A model generated the notes under the pieces. It ran no database searches, was not told the DNA's origin, and saw nothing but the letters and a program-made list of their open reading frames with translations. The position numbers and the translations under genes were made by a program. Below are positions 55,814-63,829 of a DNA stretch of 64,000 nt, in pieces. Where the stretch lies: the NCBI GenBank assembly GCA_947169185.1, contig CAMVOS010000005.1:31046-95045 (forward strand). The letters are read 5' to 3'. The DNA is from an uncultured Prevotella sp. (lineage in GTDB: Bacteria; Bacteroidota; Bacteroidia; Bacteroidales; Bacteroidaceae). How positions within the stretch are numbered: the first letter of the stretch is position 1; every line of letters starts with the position of its first letter.

Positions 55814-58138
55814 TCACCATTTGTCGCGGGTTTGGATATCGTCAGTCCACCGATGGTCTTTGGGGAAGGACTGTCCATTCCATGCCTTGACCTGAGTCCA
55901 GGGCTGCGGTGCATCTGTCCAGAAAGGATGAGAGGTTGGCAGACCTAAGGGCATAAAGGCCAGGCTGGTCATATAGAGCGAGCCATTGTTGGTGTACCAG
56001 TCGGCTGTCTCAGGCTGTGAACCACAGAAGCCAATCGTCAGATACCCGCCCTCGTTGAAGTTGTTCTGGACATCAAACATCCGATGCATCACCTGGGTCA
56101 GAGCGGCACGAACCTGTCCGTTACTGAGGTCGGAAGGCAGTTTCTGATACCATGCCATCAAGGCTAGTGGTTGCATGGCTGCCAGACGGTAAGGTGTAGA
56201 TCTTCCAATCACGGGGAACGTACCTTCAGGCGAGATGAAACGCTCGAGAATGATGGAAAACTTCTGGGCTCGTTTCAGAGCACGCTCATAGTATTTCTTG
56301 TAGTCCAAACGCGAGTTGTACTTCGAATCGACCATGGCCTGCAGAGTTTCCAAATACATCGCATGAAAAACGTAGCTGGAATAGTAGTCGAAGGCAAACA
56401 CGGGGCCATCGGCATACCAGCCGTCACCCACATACCATTCTTCCACTTTACGGCAGGCTGTATTGACGCGGAACTCATCGAATGGAGCTTTGGCTTTTGC
56501 CAGCAGACTCTCGATAGTTGACGAGAACAGGAACCAGTTGGTGTAGGGTGGGTCGATATGACGCATCTTTTGGAATTCCTTGATATAACGCTGTTTGGTC
56601 ACATCGTCAAGTGGTATCCACAACACATCCCAGGCACGAAGGAACGACTCAGCGATATAGGCTGCATCAACGAGGTTCTGCCCAGCCTTGCCCCAACAGA
56701 GATAATCGGGTGAGTCGGGATCAACGGAATTTTTATAAGCCGCCAATGCCCAGTCGCGGAGTTGTCTGCGCTGTTGTCCCTCAGCAGTGTCGTCATCAGG
56801 CAGCGTCAGCCACGGAGCTATACCTGCCATCAGACGTCCGAAGGTTTCCATATAGACCACACTACGGTCGCGATTGTCAAATGAGGGTGAGAACTCCGTC
56901 TTCATATTCTTCTGCAACTCACCCTTGGCCATGTTCTCCAGCACGGGTTGTGCCATCTTCCAGGCCAGCGAGCACCAATACTCACGATCGGTCTGGGGTG
57001 TAATCTGCAGATAGCGATAGAATTCGCAGGCTGCCAGCAGGAATGCGCCCACACCAAAGTTGGCTTGACTGTTAGTATCGACCGTCTGCCCAGGTATGGC
57101 GCGCTCGCCGATAGGCTGAACATAACCAACCTTTCCGTCCGACTGCAATGCAATGGTAGACAGGTAGTTCCATGCTTTCTCAACGACAGGTTCAAACTCC
57201 TTTCGGGGCAGATAGCCGTTGTTGATACCCCAAAGCAGACCGTAGCAGAAGAAGGCCGTGCCTGAGGTCTCGTAGCCAGGTGCCTGATCAGGATCCATCA
57301 TTGAGCGCGTCCAGTGGCCTTCAGGTTGTTGCAGGCATTTGACACCATGTGCCAGATTGACGAATTTTTCGGCAAAGAATGGTTGGTGCTTATAGGTCTT
57401 TGGCATATCCTGCAACACCTTGGCCAAACCTGCCAGGACCCACCCGTCGCCACGCGCCCAGAAGTCTTTCTTGCCACTAGCCGTCTTGTGTTTTGGATAG
57501 ACGTATTTTCCGTCGCGGAAGTAGAGACCCGTCTCTTGGTCGAGCATGATACTGTCGCTGTAGCAGATGTTCTCATACAATTTGTCCAGATACTTCTCCT
57601 CACCCGTCAGCTTATACATCTTCGTCATCACAGGCATCACCATATATAGTGCATCGGCCCACCACCAATAGTCGTTGGCCTTCGAGTCGGCCTCGTAGCC
57701 CATCACCTCCTTGGCGCGAGCCACCTTTTTCTTTTGAGGAGCGAGGTTATAGAGATCAATGTATGTCTGGAAACAGATCTGCCAGTCGCCGAAGAGCACA
57801 TAGTCCTGTCCTTCGCCATATCGTTTGTATTTCCATTTACCGGGATCGGGTTCTGTGGCGCCCTTCCATTGGTTGTGCTGGGCCCAACGGAGTGAGTAAT
57901 CGAGAAAACTCTTCACTGTTATCTCTTCACTCTTCACTTCCGACAAAAGTCGGATAGCCTCCATATTACCCGTATGATAGGCGGCATGATCCCAAAAGGC
58001 CCGAACTTCAGCAGGATTGTTGGTCTGCCAATAAGTGTTCACCTTTTTGATGATTTCCTTCACTTCCTCGCTCGACCATTGCTTGGCCTGCAAGGTCACA
58101 ACTGCAAAGACACAAATGACGGTAAGTAGTTTTCTCAT
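55814..58138 (-). CDS. GH105 unsaturated rhamnogalacturonyl hydrolase-like domain fused to DUF2264
   Basis: N-term YEADSKANDYWWWADALYMVMPVMTKMYKLTGEEKYLD...WARGDGWVLAGLAKVL; C-term DUF2264 (VYMETFGRLMAGIAPWL...WNGQSFPKDH). ORF opens at 58159 inside the promoter, so start is 58147 or 58138. Confidence 0.88.
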   Translation of the reverse strand: MRKLLTVICVFAVVTLQAKQWSSEEVKEIIKKVNTYWQTNNPAEVRAFWDHAAYHTGNMEAIRLLSEVKSEEITVKSFLDYSLRWAQHNQWKGATEPDPGKWKYKRYGEGQDYVLFGDWQICFQTYIDLYNLAPQKKKVARAKEVMGYEADSKANDYWWWADALYMVMPVMTKMYKLTGEEKYLDKLYENICYSDSIMLDQETGLYFRDGKYVYPKHKTASGKKDFWARGDGWVLAGLAKVLQDMPKTYKHQPFFAEKFVNLAHGVKCLQQPEGHWTRSMMDPDQAPGYETSGTAFFCYGLLWGINNGYLPRKEFEPVVEKAWNYLSTIALQSDGKVGYVQPIGERAIPGQTVDTNSQANFGVGAFLLAACEFYRYLQITPQTDREYWCSLAWKMAQPVLENMAKGELQKNMKTEFSPSFDNRDRSVVYMETFGRLMAGIAPWLTLPDDDTAEGQQRRQLRDWALAAYKNSVDPDSPDYLCWGKAGQNLVDAAYIAESFLRAWDVLWIPLDDVTKQRYIKEFQKMRHIDPPYTNWFLFSSTIESLLAKAKAPFDEFRVNTACRKVEEWYVGDGWYADGPVFAFDYYSSYVFHAMYLETLQAMVDSKYNSRLDYKKYYERALKRAQKFSIILERFISPEGTFPVIGRSTPYRLAAMQPLALMAWYQKLPSDLSNGQVRAALTQVMHRMFDVQNNFNEGGYLTIGFCGSQPETADWYTNNGSLYMTSLAFMPLGLPTSHPFWTDAPQPWTQVKAWNGQSFPKDHRWTDDIQTRDKW

Positions 58139-58156
58139 TATTCTCATATTTTCCTG

Positions 58157-58164
58157 CAAAGGTA
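58157..58164 (-). promoter_or_regulatory. -7 box TACCTTTG (minus strand)
   Basis: CAAAGGTA on plus strand; divergent promoter for the GH105-DUF2264 gene. Confidence 0.6.
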
Positions 58165-58236: not shown

Positions 58237-59973
58237 ATGAAACAAATCGCACATATAATTGTATTTATATCGCTGTTGGTCATTTCAGGTTGTGGGAACA
58301 ATCACTCATTAAGGCAGTTGCCGCACTTGGGTCATACGCCTTATCAGCAGGATTCTATTCTGGTGGCATATGCCGTCAACCCTGAGCGGGCGCTCGTGCT
58401 GCTCGACTCGGCGTTGGTCATAGGTAACATCAGCGACTATCGCGGACAGTTTATCCGTGCCAAGATTTACTGTAAGTCGCTCACGGAACAGCGGATTGAT
58501 TCAGCCATTACCATTTGCACGGCGTTGCTCAACCACGACTCCGTGCGCAACGAGCCCACCGAACAGGCAAACATCCTCGACATGCTCATCGCCACGGCTC
58601 GTGCCAAGACCGACTACGAGGCTTACCTGCGCTGGGCCACCCAGAAGGCCGAGCTCTGTCAACAGCAAGGTGAGGAGACCGAACGCTGGCGCACCGAGGC
58701 CGACATTGGTCTAATAATGACGACTCTGGGGCAGGAGGATGAAGGACTTGCCAAGCTCGACGAGGCCATCAGCCACCTGGACGCTCCTGGCAGCATCGAC
58801 CGCATGGATGCCTTTGTCGTTGCCTGCAAGCGTAAGATCAATGCCCTCAGCAGCCTGAAGCGTTACAACGAGGTGATCCCATTGGGACAACGCATCCTCG
58901 ATCGTCTCGACCACTACGAACAGCATGCCAAGGACTATGCCGAGGACAGCTACCGTCTCTCGTGGAGCGATAATCCCAGTGACCGAGACCGCTATCTGGA
59001 CTTCAGCCGCGCACAGGCCTGGGGTTTTATGGCTACAGCATATAGTCACAGCCTCACCCCCGACCCCTCTCCAAGAGGAGAGGGGAGTAACTACCAGAAA
59101 GCACGCGAGTATCTTGCGCTTTTTGACCAGAGCGGCTACGGTAAGACCTTTGCGGCCAGACGCTTTATTGCCCCTACGCAGATGGCACTGGGCATGTACG
59201 ACGAAGCTCTGGCCACCTACGACGAAGTAGAGCGTCGCATGGCTGCCGACACACTCAATGAGGACTATGCCATCATCCTCCGTTCCCGTGCCATCGCAGC
59301 CCGTGAGAAGAAACACTACGCGGAAGCTTACTACTACCAGACTCGCAACGCTGAGCTCTCGAAAGTACTCAGCGACAGCCTCATGAAAGGCAAGGCCCAC
59401 GACTATGCCGCGCGCTACCATGCCCAGGAGCAGCAACTCCAGATTCAGGAAAAAGAGTCTGAGGCCCAGCGCTCGCATATCATCAGTGTAGCCATTGCCG
59501 TCATTGCCCTGCTGGCCATAGCCTTTGCCGTCTATTTCTTCCATCAGAAACGCATCGTCACAGAGAAGAACCGTGCTTTGGTACGTATGATCAATGAACA
59601 GGCGGAAGAACCATTGACTCCCCTCGCTCATAGGGAGGAACCGCAGGAGGGTCTCTTCTACACCATCGACACCGCCATCCGTACTGAGCGCCTCTATGCC
59701 AACGTCAGTCTGCAGCGTCAGGACATCTGCGACCGTTTTGGCATCAGCCGTCATGCACTCAACGACCTGCTCACTGAGTATGCCGGTGGCCTCTCTTTCC
59801 CACAGTATGTCAACAATATTCGTCTGGAGGAGGCCCTCCGCATGTTACGCTACGAATCCTCAAAAACCTTGACGACGATAGCCAACGAGGTAGGTTTTAC
59901 GCCTGCCAACCTGCGCGAGCAATTTAAACGGAAATATGGCATGACGCCTGCAGATTATCGTCAAAATCAGTGA
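58237..59973 (+). CDS. TPR-TM-AraC-type transcriptional regulator
   Basis: Lipobox-like VISGCGNN; helical TPR-like region; TM (SVAIAVIALLAIAFAVYFF); AraC HTH (TLTTIANEVGFTPANLREQFKRKYGMTPADYR). Confidence 0.88.
   Translation: MKQIAHIIVFISLLVISGCGNNHSLRQLPHLGHTPYQQDSILVAYAVNPERALVLLDSALVIGNISDYRGQFIRAKIYCKSLTEQRIDSAITICTALLNHDSVRNEPTEQANILDMLIATARAKTDYEAYLRWATQKAELCQQQGEETERWRTEADIGLIMTTLGQEDEGLAKLDEAISHLDAPGSIDRMDAFVVACKRKINALSSLKRYNEVIPLGQRILDRLDHYEQHAKDYAEDSYRLSWSDNPSDRDRYLDFSRAQAWGFMATAYSHSLTPDPSPRGEGSNYQKAREYLALFDQSGYGKTFAARRFIAPTQMALGMYDEALATYDEVERRMAADTLNEDYAIILRSRAIAAREKKHYAEAYYYQTRNAELSKVLSDSLMKGKAHDYAARYHAQEQQLQIQEKESEAQRSHIISVAIAVIALLAIAFAVYFFHQKRIVTEKNRALVRMINEQAEEPLTPLAHREEPQEGLFYTIDTAIRTERLYANVSLQRQDICDRFGISRHALNDLLTEYAGGLSFPQYVNNIRLEEALRMLRYESSKTLTTIANEVGFTPANLREQFKRKYGMTPADYRQNQ
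59051..59089 (+). repeat. Dispersed-type palindromic repeat inside CDS
   Basis: CCTCACCCCCGACCCCTCTCCAAGAGGAGAGGGGAGTAA; stem CCCCTCTCC-AAGA-GGAGAGGGG; encodes LTPDPSPRGEGS. Confidence 0.8.
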
Positions 59974-60043
59974 AGAAAAGAATGCCTGACTACTATCAGA
60001 ATTAACAAAACACTTTCAATATTTACAAAAAATAAAACCTTCG

Positions 60044-60079
60044 ATGCACGCATTTGGGTCATGTACCAAATGCGTGCAT
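60044..60079. promoter_or_regulatory. Perfect 14-bp dyad (operator or terminator)
   Basis: ATGCACGCATTTGG - GTCATGTA - CCAAATGCGTGCAT, ~30 bp upstream of the -7 box TAATTTTG (60111-60118). Confidence 0.75.
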
Positions 60080-60110: not shown

Positions 60111-60118
60111 TAATTTTG
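60111..60118 (+). promoter_or_regulatory. -7 box TAATTTTG
   Basis: Upstream of the 60138 AraC gene. Confidence 0.55.
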
Positions 60119-60137
60119 CGGACAAATACACACCCCA

Positions 60138-60488
60138 ATGGACAAAGAACTCTTTAAAATCATCGACACAATTATCCGTAATGAACGCCTTTACTCACAA
60201 GTTAATTTAATGCGTGAGGACATTATGAAGCGTTTCAACATTGGTCGCCATCATCTGAACGACCAGCTCAACACCTTTGCCGATGGCATGAGTTTCCCCC
60301 AGTATATCAACTCCATCCGCATGGAGGTAGCCTACGATCTGCTGACAAACCATCCCGAGATGACTATTACCGATGTGGCCCGCGAGGTAGGCTTCACCGC
60401 ACCTAACTTGCGTGAACAGTTCAAGCGCTGTTACGGCATCACCCCTGCAGAATACCGTGCAACCCTTGTTCCCGATGAAGAAGAATAA
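60138..60488 (+). CDS. Stand-alone AraC-type DNA-binding domain (116 aa)
   Basis: MTITDVAREVGFTAPNLREQFKRCYGITPAEYR; aligns with the C-terminal domain of the 58237 regulator. Confidence 0.9.
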   Translation: MDKELFKIIDTIIRNERLYSQVNLMREDIMKRFNIGRHHLNDQLNTFADGMSFPQYINSIRMEVAYDLLTNHPEMTITDVAREVGFTAPNLREQFKRCYGITPAEYRATLVPDEEE

Positions 60489-60497
60489 GAATAATAT

Positions 60498-61637
60498 ATG
60501 TACGCACAGCAGAGTCTTCAAGATACTTTATTCCTAATGCTTTATGGCGCTGTTGCCATATTGGCACTGGTATCAGGACTCTATCTGTGGCTCAGGCGCA
60601 GCAATGGCTTTTTGCCTGACGTCACGCCACCGAGGGCACTGCGCCGATGGACGGCAGCGTTCTTCATCATGGCAGCACTGAGTCACGTCTGGTGGTATGT
60701 GCTGGGCATCTATTGGCTGACAGACGACCGCTTGGTGCGCAACATCACGGCTGTTACCCTAGACCATATTCTGCTTGTTCCGATGGTGATGGCTATACTG
60801 CTGCGCATCTTACAGGACCGCCAGCGCCGTCTTTGGCCGTGGGGCTTGGCTCAAGTGCCTATCCTCGTATTCGCGGCCATAGGAATTACCACGCACAGCG
60901 CATTCTACGGCTTTGACATGACGACCTACTGGCAGATGGCTGTCATGTCCATATTTATTTTGTATTACATCTATGCGCTGATACAGTACGGCCGCTGGCT
61001 TCGCGAGAACTATGCCGACCTTGAGCACAAGGAGGTCTGGCAGAGTCTGCTGTTTGCAGTTGTCCTTTTCGTCATCTATGAGGTCTATTTTACCAATCCG
61101 GGAGAGATGGCCAGAGAGTTTCTGTCACAGCTGGAAACGCTCGCCATAATCGCCTTCCTGCTCTGGCGCGTCGAGACTCTGGAGACACTCGATGCCAAAG
61201 AAACGGTCTTGCCGGAAGACATTTCTGATGACACTCAGACTGGGGAGTCTTCTACCAACTCCTTGTCAGTATCCATTCTCAACAAAATTCAGGACTTGCT
61301 TGACATACATTGTGAAGCTGGGCAACTCTATCTACAACACGACCTGACGCTGCAACAGCTTGCTATGGGTATCGGCACGAACCGCACCTATCTGAGTACC
61401 TATTTTGCCCAAAAGGGCATCACCTATAATGCGTATATTAATCGCCTACGTGTCGACCATTTTATGCGACTCTACTGCGAAAGCGTTAATTCCGATCGGC
61501 CTATTGCCGCCACACAACTCGCCCTGAAAAGCGGCTTCCGTAGTTACAGCACCTTCAGTAATGCCTTTAAGAACTTTCGTGGCCTTACTGTAGCAGCATG
61601 GATGGCAAATATTCAAGCTAAAAAAGAACTTACATAA
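60498..61637 (+). CDS. Membrane-embedded AraC-family regulator (multi-TM N-terminus, AraC HTH C-terminus)
   Basis: About six hydrophobic segments in the N-terminal ~220 aa; C-term LTLQQLAMGIGTNRTYLSTYFAQKGITYNAYINRLRV...GFRSYSTFSNAFKNFRGLT. Confidence 0.88.
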   Translation: MYAQQSLQDTLFLMLYGAVAILALVSGLYLWLRRSNGFLPDVTPPRALRRWTAAFFIMAALSHVWWYVLGIYWLTDDRLVRNITAVTLDHILLVPMVMAILLRILQDRQRRLWPWGLAQVPILVFAAIGITTHSAFYGFDMTTYWQMAVMSIFILYYIYALIQYGRWLRENYADLEHKEVWQSLLFAVVLFVIYEVYFTNPGEMAREFLSQLETLAIIAFLLWRVETLETLDAKETVLPEDISDDTQTGESSTNSLSVSILNKIQDLLDIHCEAGQLYLQHDLTLQQLAMGIGTNRTYLSTYFAQKGITYNAYINRLRVDHFMRLYCESVNSDRPIAATQLALKSGFRSYSTFSNAFKNFRGLTVAAWMANIQAKKELT

Positions 61638-61640
61638 AAC

Positions 61641-62828
61641 ATGGACGAAAGAGTAATCAAGATAGTGAACGATGCGCGGTGGGCTGACGGCCAGACTGTA
61701 AGGAACAGGCTGGACGACATCACGTACAACCCCATGCGCAGTCAGGAGGATTTCGTCATGCGTCTGGTCCGCGAGAATGCCAGCACGGAATATGGCAAGA
61801 AGAATGGTTTTAAGGCTATCCATAACATGGACGACTACCGCCGCTTGGTGCCGCTGACCACCTATTCCGACTATAGCGAGTATATCGAACATATAGCCAA
61901 CGGCAAGCGCAACGTCCTGACAGCCTATCTGACAGAGCATATTTCGATATGGGACTGTTTCAAGGGACTGCCACAGTCCCGTTGGAGCGTACAGGCCTGC
62001 TACGACTATTGTTGCTGTGCCGCATTCTATGTGGTGGGCCATCACGGCTATCTGACGGATGGTATGACGCTAAACCTGGTGGACAATGGCTTGGAACGCT
62101 TGTCGTCGGGCGTCACCATAGGTAGCCTGTTGGGGCGTCTGCTGGCGAAACGCGATGTCGATAACAAGCAGGTCTACGTGATACCTGTCGACACTGCTAT
62201 CACGGAAGATACAGACCTGCCATACCTTGAGGCACTCTATGCCTTGAAGGAGCGGGACATCATGCAGGCCATCTGCGACCGCTACGACAAGATGGTCGAG
62301 ATGTTGCGCTATATCGAGAAACACTGGCCCCAGCTGGCCGACGACATCGAGCAAGGCAATGCGTATGTCAAGCCTGATGCAGAACGGGCCAACGCCATTC
62401 GTGAAATCATGGAGACGCATAATATCGGCACGCAAATCGTAGAACAGCTGTGGCCCGGACTACGCTGCATCCTGGTACACGACGTCGACAACCTCAGCGC
62501 CAGCTTCGAACTGCTGCGCACCTATTGCGGCAACAACGTGCATTTTGTGTTTACAGGCATCAGCGCCCCCGAGGGCACCTTCACCACCACACTGAACCTT
62601 GACGACCCACAGACGGTGCTGATACCCGACAGCGTATTCTACGAATTCAAACCTAAGGACGCTGCGAGCTATAACACGCTGCTGACACTCGACCAGTTGG
62701 AAATAGGTCGCAGCTACGAATTAGTCGTATCGACGCTCTCCGGTCTCTACCGTTACAAGACCGGCAAGACCTTCCTCGTCGTTGGTCGCTATCACGACAC
62801 CCCCACCGTCATTATTGATAAAGGATAA
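61641..62828 (+). CDS. GH3-like (acyl-adenylate/amido-synthetase superfamily) protein, truncated and lacking the nucleotide-binding loop
   Basis: NASTEYGKKNGFKAIHNMDDYRRLVPLTTYSDYSEYIEHIANGKRNVLT; SVFYEFKPKD; YELVVSTLSGLYRYKTGKTFLVVGRY; no TSGTT-like motif and no C-terminal lid. Confidence 0.75.
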   Translation: MDERVIKIVNDARWADGQTVRNRLDDITYNPMRSQEDFVMRLVRENASTEYGKKNGFKAIHNMDDYRRLVPLTTYSDYSEYIEHIANGKRNVLTAYLTEHISIWDCFKGLPQSRWSVQACYDYCCCAAFYVVGHHGYLTDGMTLNLVDNGLERLSSGVTIGSLLGRLLAKRDVDNKQVYVIPVDTAITEDTDLPYLEALYALKERDIMQAICDRYDKMVEMLRYIEKHWPQLADDIEQGNAYVKPDAERANAIREIMETHNIGTQIVEQLWPGLRCILVHDVDNLSASFELLRTYCGNNVHFVFTGISAPEGTFTTTLNLDDPQTVLIPDSVFYEFKPKDAASYNTLLTLDQLEIGRSYELVVSTLSGLYRYKTGKTFLVVGRYHDTPTVIIDKG

Positions 62829-62848
62829 ATATAAATAATAGGTTAAAC

Positions 62849-63829
62849 ATGTATCAAGGTAAAAAGATTATTCAGCCACCCTATTTGAAGGCAGGTGACA
62901 AGGTTGCCCTTGTTTCTCCTGCTTATTGGGTGCCACAAGAAGCCATACATCAGGCTGCAGAAACCATCAAAAGCTGGGGACTGCAGCCTGTTGTTGGTCC
63001 ACACACCAACAGTTTGAATGTCGATGCCTATGCAGGCACAGCCGACGAGCGCGCCGCCGACCTGCTGTGGGCTCTGGAAGACGACAGCATTAAGGCCATC
63101 GTTTGTTCACGAGGCGGCTATGGTTCCATCCACCTGCTGAACCGCATCCCCATCGAAAGCTATCAGCAACACCCCAAATGGCTCATTGGTCATGGCGACA
63201 TCACCATGCTGCTCTATGCCATTGCATACGCGGGCGTCATGTGTATCCACGGTCCCATGGCCTACCAGATAGCCAGCAATCAGGAGCCAGCCACCAGCAT
63301 CACACGTAACATTCTGTTTGGTATGCTGCCACAATATAAGATACCTGGCCATTCCTATAACCGGAGTGGTCATGCGGAGGGAATACTCGTTGGTGGCAAC
63401 CTCTCCAGCTATTCCGCTGTGGCAGGCACAAAGATTCATCTCGCCTCCAAACACGACATCATCCTCTTTATAGAAGAGGTGGAGGAGTCGCTGCACGACA
63501 TCGACCGCCTGTTCTATATGCTGCGCCTGCAGTACGACTTCGAAAGAGTCAAAGGCATCATCTTCGGTACCTTCAGTTCTATCAAGTACGACCTGCAGTA
63601 TGGTAGCGTCGAGCAGATGCTCATCGCCCACCTGCACGACTACGACATCCCCGTCTGCTGTGGCTTCCCCGTAGGTAGCAACAGTTGCATCCCCCTCATC
63701 GAGGGCGCCCCCTGTTCCCTCGATGTCACCACCGACCACGCTACGCTGTCTTTCAATATCAACGGCGGTGTGGAATCCTATGACGTCAACATCGCCAATT
63801 CGAAACTGATTAAGGAGAAACAATTTTGA
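62849..63829 (+). CDS. S66 LD-carboxypeptidase (LdcA/MccF-like) homologue with substituted catalytic residues
   Basis: YLKAGDKVALVSPA, IVCSRGGYGSIHLLNRI, LVGGNLSSYSAVAGT, LFIEEVEESLHDIDRLFYMLRL; IGHGDIT in place of GxSDIT; GFPVGS in place of GFPxGH. Confidence 0.88.
   Translation: MYQGKKIIQPPYLKAGDKVALVSPAYWVPQEAIHQAAETIKSWGLQPVVGPHTNSLNVDAYAGTADERAADLLWALEDDSIKAIVCSRGGYGSIHLLNRIPIESYQQHPKWLIGHGDITMLLYAIAYAGVMCIHGPMAYQIASNQEPATSITRNILFGMLPQYKIPGHSYNRSGHAEGILVGGNLSSYSAVAGTKIHLASKHDIILFIEEVEESLHDIDRLFYMLRLQYDFERVKGIIFGTFSSIKYDLQYGSVEQMLIAHLHDYDIPVCCGFPVGSNSCIPLIEGAPCSLDVTTDHATLSFNINGGVESYDVNIANSKLIKEKQF

Follow-up and report, generated by a model that had tools for sequence, protein, structure and literature searches.

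Within the window, by which we mean the whole stretch of 64,000 nucleotides analysed here, ORF calling found four plus-strand open reading frames at 60138–63829 with gaps of 9, 3, and 20 nt, reproducing the tight co-directional run claimed in the original prediction. From the small AraC gene onward, these genes apparently constitute one operon. The unit is larger than those four genes, as a fifth gene, encoding a TPR-AraC protein, and two operators upstream of 60138 also belong to it. Its parts are the following:

58240–59973, + strand: TPR-AraC, with a C-terminal AraC helix-turn-helix (HTH) domain (HTH_18, Pfam E 5e-17)
59998–60029, + strand: direct-repeat operator AGAATTAACAAA-N8-AATATTTACAAA, period 20 bp, located 81 nt upstream of the -7 box; candidate binding site for the membrane AraC
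60044–60079, no strand assigned: palindromic operator ATGCACGCATTTGG-N8-CCAAATGCGTGCAT; candidate site of the small AraC or TPR-AraC
60111–60118, + strand: -7 box TAATTTTG of the operon promoter, identified by sequence against the Bacteroidetes -7 consensus TAnnTTTG (PMC7366714)
60138–60488, + strand: small AraC, 116 aa, consisting of the AraC HTH only (HTH_18, Pfam)
60498–61637, + strand: membrane AraC, 379 aa, with a C-terminal HTH (HTH_18, Pfam)
61641–62828, + strand: GH3-like pseudoenzyme, 395 aa, with the GH3 and GH3_M domains and without GH3_C (Pfam)
62849–63829, + strand: S66-like pseudo-peptidase, 326 aa, with the Peptidase_S66 and S66C domains (Pfam)

Divergent from the TPR-AraC gene, the minus strand at 55814–58159 encodes a 781-aa exported protein, by eye a GH105/GH88-type hydrolase with a second domain.

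All three AraC proteins pass the Pfam cut-off for the HTH_18/HTH_AraC domain, and the HTH domains of the small AraC and TPR-AraC share 59% identity. TPR-AraC begins with a lipobox (LVISGC) and has a long region, judged TPR-like by eye, as well as a single membrane segment at residues 415–433. Hydropathy places about 6–7 membrane segments within residues 10–198 of the membrane AraC, whose N-terminal membrane domain matches no Pfam family.

We scanned 85,488 species genomes and kept the best 80 S66-like loci. Among these, the loci above 57% identity are titled Prevotella, Xylanibacter, Prevotellaceae, or Bacteroidales, and they come mostly from metagenome genomes of the rumen or other ruminant gut. 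The isolates among the loci are tf2-5, MA2016, khp7, X. ruminicola Ga6B6, and X. ruminicola D31d; at L147, L151, L152, and L153, which are from isolate genomes, the pseudo-S66 gene is present and cassette regulators are absent beside it. The cultured Prevotella sp. tf2-5 has cassettes of both types, mAraC-S66-GH3 at L142 and sAraC-c4-TPR-AraC-S66 at L161. Near the best 80 S66-like genes, the window included, we counted the membrane AraC 45 times, the small AraC 36 times, TPR-AraC 32 times, the GH3-like protein 31 times, and a 114-aa protein, c4, 18 times. The cassette is sharply bordered within variable surroundings, because no other protein cluster occurred in more than four of these loci; low gene-order conservation in Prevotella could be a partial cause. 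The c4 protein (L161:7847–8188 and relatives) has invariant H67, G69, D82, and D85. By eye it resembles a degenerate GHKL/RsbW-type ATPase, but Pfam and PDB profile searches gave no match.

The gene set of the four-gene run is retained in many genomes, as had been predicted, but its exact order is not. The S66-like gene is directly followed by the GH3-like gene at 27 junctions (median gap 6 nt), whereas the GH3-S66 order of the window occurs at only three, one of them with an active paralogue, making the arrangement that was expected to be conserved an exception. The expected company of regulators was found at 52 of the 65 loci whose upstream sequence covers 3 kb or more, but the other 13, including X. 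ruminicola Ga6B6 and D31d, have no cassette regulator near the S66-like gene; the S66-like protein can therefore apparently work alone or under other control. The GH3-like gene co-occurs with the membrane AraC (23/26, p=8e-5), and in 200 genomes of the genus its close relatives were found only beside pseudo-S66 genes. Pairwise identities of the two proteins are correlated over 21 loci (Mantel r 0.67, p 0.0005).

Comparison of upstream sequences across loci gave the palindrome as GCACGCATTTGG-N8-CCAAATGCGTGC and the direct repeat as AGAATTTACAAA with a period of 20–21 bp. Each tracks one regulator type. The palindrome was present at 27 of 28 loci with a small AraC or TPR-AraC vs 3 of 37 without (Fisher, p=7e-14), and the direct repeat at 30 of 38 loci with a membrane AraC vs 5 of 27 without (p=2.6e-6), both p values being too strong since the loci are kin. 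The crossed pairs, palindrome with membrane AraC and direct repeat with small AraC or TPR-AraC, showed no significant association. We infer that the palindrome is a candidate binding site of the small AraC and/or TPR-AraC, and that the direct repeat is likewise a candidate site of the membrane AraC.

Both operators keep a defined distance to the promoter. The palindrome core in the window (60046–60077) stops 33 nt short of the -7 box, and a distance of 32 or 33 nt recurs in 66 of 71 unique sites. The direct repeat lies 48/49, 58–60, 69–70, or 80–81 nt from the -7 box. These distances differ by roughly one turn of the helix each, and a test of this helical phase gave p 1e-6 even when the main class was left out. 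A -7 box of this kind has a background of 3% in a 90-nt stretch. The palindrome does score as a terminator-like stem of 14 pairs with a T-rich tail, and it might thus be merely the terminator of the upstream gene, the neighbourhood reflecting hitch-hiking without common regulation. We regard this account as hardly credible, for besides the constant spacing, the sequence of the arms is conserved in unrelated surroundings, and the neighbouring gene upstream is divergent at seven or more of the sites that have a phased -7 box. The last observation argues against a palindrome that is only a terminator.

In the draft genome of the window, which is 75% complete so that undercounting is possible, each operator was seen once, at this locus (up to three mismatches). 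Among the 200 genus genomes, 12 contain the palindrome and nine of these the pseudo-S66 gene. A small AraC or TPR-AraC lies beside the palindrome in 11 of the 12; the exception, G136, has a single palindrome near a lipoprotein gene.

The S66-like protein belongs to the S66 fold family by its N- and C-terminal domains (Pfam E 3e-30 and 5e-24) and can be aligned to Pseudomonas LdcA. Its AF2 model (pLDDT 86) has LdcA and MccF as the nearest folds (Foldseek E 2e-23). An active S66 peptidase has a Ser-Glu-His triad, of which only the Glu is retained here: the nucleophile Ser is replaced by Gly116 (IGHGDIT vs IGFSDIT) and the catalytic His by Ser277 (PVGSNS vs PVGH), and Glu209 remains. Over 76 full-length orthologues of 58–100% identity, the nucleophile position holds Gly in 75 and Asp in one, the catalytic His is absent from all, and Glu209 is present in all. 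Active S66 paralogues of the same group, including one in the window's own genome, retain both Ser and His. In the tree, the 76 proteins group as a single clade that contains no active S66 protein, its support being only 0.51.

Two residues are new in this clade: His115, adjoining the lost nucleophile, in all 76 proteins, and Cys280, three residues past the lost His, in 75. Together with the invariant Glu209, they might form a remodelled active site, in which case the S66-like protein would still be an enzyme and the AraC proteins would simply activate a small pathway of metabolism or modification. Migration of catalytic residues has precedent among pseudoenzymes (PMC10211241). We consider this unlikely, as Cys280 is replaced by Ser in one orthologue, the GH3 partner is without its nucleotide motifs, and C86, C271, and H216 also occur in active paralogues, leaving only H115, C270, and C280 as specific to the clade.

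The GH3-like protein shows recurrent losses too. All 28 aligned sequences are missing nucleotide motif I (TSGTxGxPK) through a deletion and also end without the C-terminal domain; the motif III Asp is gone in all six rows shown in full in the alignment, with Lys in the window protein, which does retain the motif II Glu. GH3 amido synthetases are defined by nucleotide motifs I–III and the C-terminal domain, and the GH3-like protein lacks this full set and stops after GH3_M. The loss of catalytic residues claimed for both proteins in the original prediction is borne out and is conserved, in 28/28 GH3-like and 76/76 S66-like sequences. Bacterial GH3 proteins have been proposed to make N-acyl amino lipids (PMC12493201). 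The structure model of the GH3-like protein is unreliable (pLDDT 58). Proteins of about 690 aa at L038, L039, L041, and L042 (genomes G082, G157, G037, and G167) combine a GT2 glycosyltransferase with a degenerate GH3 domain, in which motif I and the C-terminal domain are likewise missing; at L039, an adenylation-type enzyme is encoded 3' of the fusion.

The purifying selection on both genes, with median dN/dS of 0.11 for the S66-like gene (140 pairs) and 0.15 for the GH3-like gene (40 pairs), disfavours decay. Judged by their sequences, both proteins are conserved pseudoenzymes or enzymes with another chemistry rather than products of decaying genes.

Conserved inactive proteins could also act as decoys or inactive subunits restraining the active S66 peptidase and the active GH3 ligase of the cell. 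We kept this explanation because an active GH3 of about 510 aa with intact motifs is found in almost every genome of the genus (96/100 above the cut-off in a PF03321 search); the window's genome also contains the active S66 paralogue. It nevertheless appears improbable: the genes of the active S66 and active GH3 are both outside the cassette, the draft genome of the window (75% complete) yielded no active GH3, and the GH3-like protein is nearer to the plant-like subfamily (E 4e-48 to L163, from another genus) than to the GH3 of its own genus (E 1e-11). L163 and L164, the closest relatives of the GH3-like protein that we found, are full-length plant-like GH3 proteins with intact motifs from another genus of the family.

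Outside the cassette, relatives carry further palindromes with genes for exported proteins downstream; the crude rule used to call export gives a background of 20% among the flanking genes. The candidate targets following a palindrome are:

L083, L088: BspA-type LRR proteins
L094: M23 peptidase lipoprotein
L094, L113, and likely L196 by sequence likeness: M13 peptidase lipoproteins
L120: metallophosphatase lipoprotein and a 554-aa lipoprotein
L085, L086: lipoproteins with no assigned family
L205, L210: secreted proteins

The palindromes at L083:18178 and L194 have no phased -7 box and were left out of this list. Two proteins related to each other, by eye resembling periplasmic binding proteins, are encoded beside palindromes in two genomes, at L120:15670–17332 (-) and L194:2–1471 (+). 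The draft genome of the window, 75% complete, shows no extra palindrome, and we therefore limit the surface regulon to the relatives, as a feature that the window strain might share.

The same surroundings bear on another possible function, immunity by sequestration, in which a peptidyl- or aminoacyl-nucleotide antibiotic would be bound uncut in MccF-like and acyl-adenylate pockets. MccF bound to AMP or aminoacyl-sulfamoyl ligands is among the S66 structures near the model, and GH3 enzymes as a family form acyl-adenylates. The nucleotide motifs are, however, gone from the GH3-like protein, genes for making or exporting an antibiotic do not recur around the cassette (no other family in more than four loci), and the palindrome regulon consists of surface proteins, with no transporters or resistance genes, making this function very improbable. 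We place a remodelled active site first among these alternatives, decoy action second, and sequestration third.

At many loci, the S66-GH3 pair stands under its own promoter, with an operator matching the regulator type, and would therefore serve primarily as something the AraC proteins regulate. The original prediction had regarded the genes as a sensing module; the residue losses, co-occurrence, and selection agree with it, but the pair is now placed primarily downstream of the regulators. In addition, the pair might respond to a ligand and pass the signal to the membrane AraC.

The reading we favour, with confidence slightly short of even, is a dedicated AraC cassette working through two operators, with the S66-like/GH3-like pair as the chief target and the pseudoenzymes as likely non-catalytic modulators of the AraC proteins. 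The palindrome would be the site of the small AraC and/or of the TPR-AraC HTH, and the 20/21-bp direct repeat that of the membrane AraC. Each site precedes a Bacteroidetes -7 box, with a spacing that is either fixed or helically phased and would suit activation rather than repression. The regulators would act chiefly on the tightly coupled pair. In the window, where the small AraC and membrane AraC appear to be encoded inside the operon, the regulators would act on their own expression as well, and in several relatives the palindrome regulon would extend to exported surface proteins. The pseudoenzymes most probably do no catalysis and instead bind a ligand in the cytoplasm, be it an acyl-amino-acid, a peptide, or a nucleotide-like compound; in this way they would tune the AraC regulators by feedback or ligand sensing, presumably through contact with them. 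We prefer ligand binding without catalysis because the parent families handle peptides or acyl-amino acids and the genes are tightly coupled. A bolder version, which we think somewhat unlikely, is that the two unrelated dead enzymes jointly form an intracellular ligand receptor gating the membrane and lipoprotein AraC proteins and, in some lineages, a surface-protein regulon.

Such a joint receptor made of dead enzymes, if real, would be a new kind of bacterial signalling module. The cassette would also be a clear example, among bacteria, of selection retaining two unrelated pseudoenzyme families together. Prevotella and Xylanibacter are abundant in the rumen, and the control of their cell-surface make-up is largely obscure. 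With named regulators, candidate targets, and two precise operators at phased promoters, the cassette makes this regulation directly testable in an isolate. We found no earlier description of it in the open-access literature that we searched, which is not proof of absence.

Several known systems share parts with this cassette. The GH3-like protein has the N-terminal and middle domains in common with the GH3 acyl acid amido synthetases of plants and with bacterial OlsH (PMC12493201). It is unlike them in the deleted motif I, the lost motif III Asp, and the absent C-terminal domain. The S66-like protein resembles LdcA and MccF in carrying both Pfam domains and in its fold (4e5s and 1zrs, TM about 0.77), and it retains the GGN and RGGYG loops besides the conserved Glu. 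The loss of Ser and His in 76/76 sequences, the new H115 and C280, and the separate clade without active paralogues (support only 0.51) set it apart. E. coli AraC at I1-I2 is an example of an AraC/XylS regulator with a direct-repeat operator. AraC HTH domains are found in both systems, and, as in other AraC/XylS direct-repeat systems, the cassette has tandem sites with half-sites about two helical turns apart upstream of the promoter. Unlike the E. coli type, the cassette has up to three AraC proteins, two of them membrane-linked, a second, palindromic operator, a Bacteroidetes promoter, and pseudoenzymes as its probable main targets.
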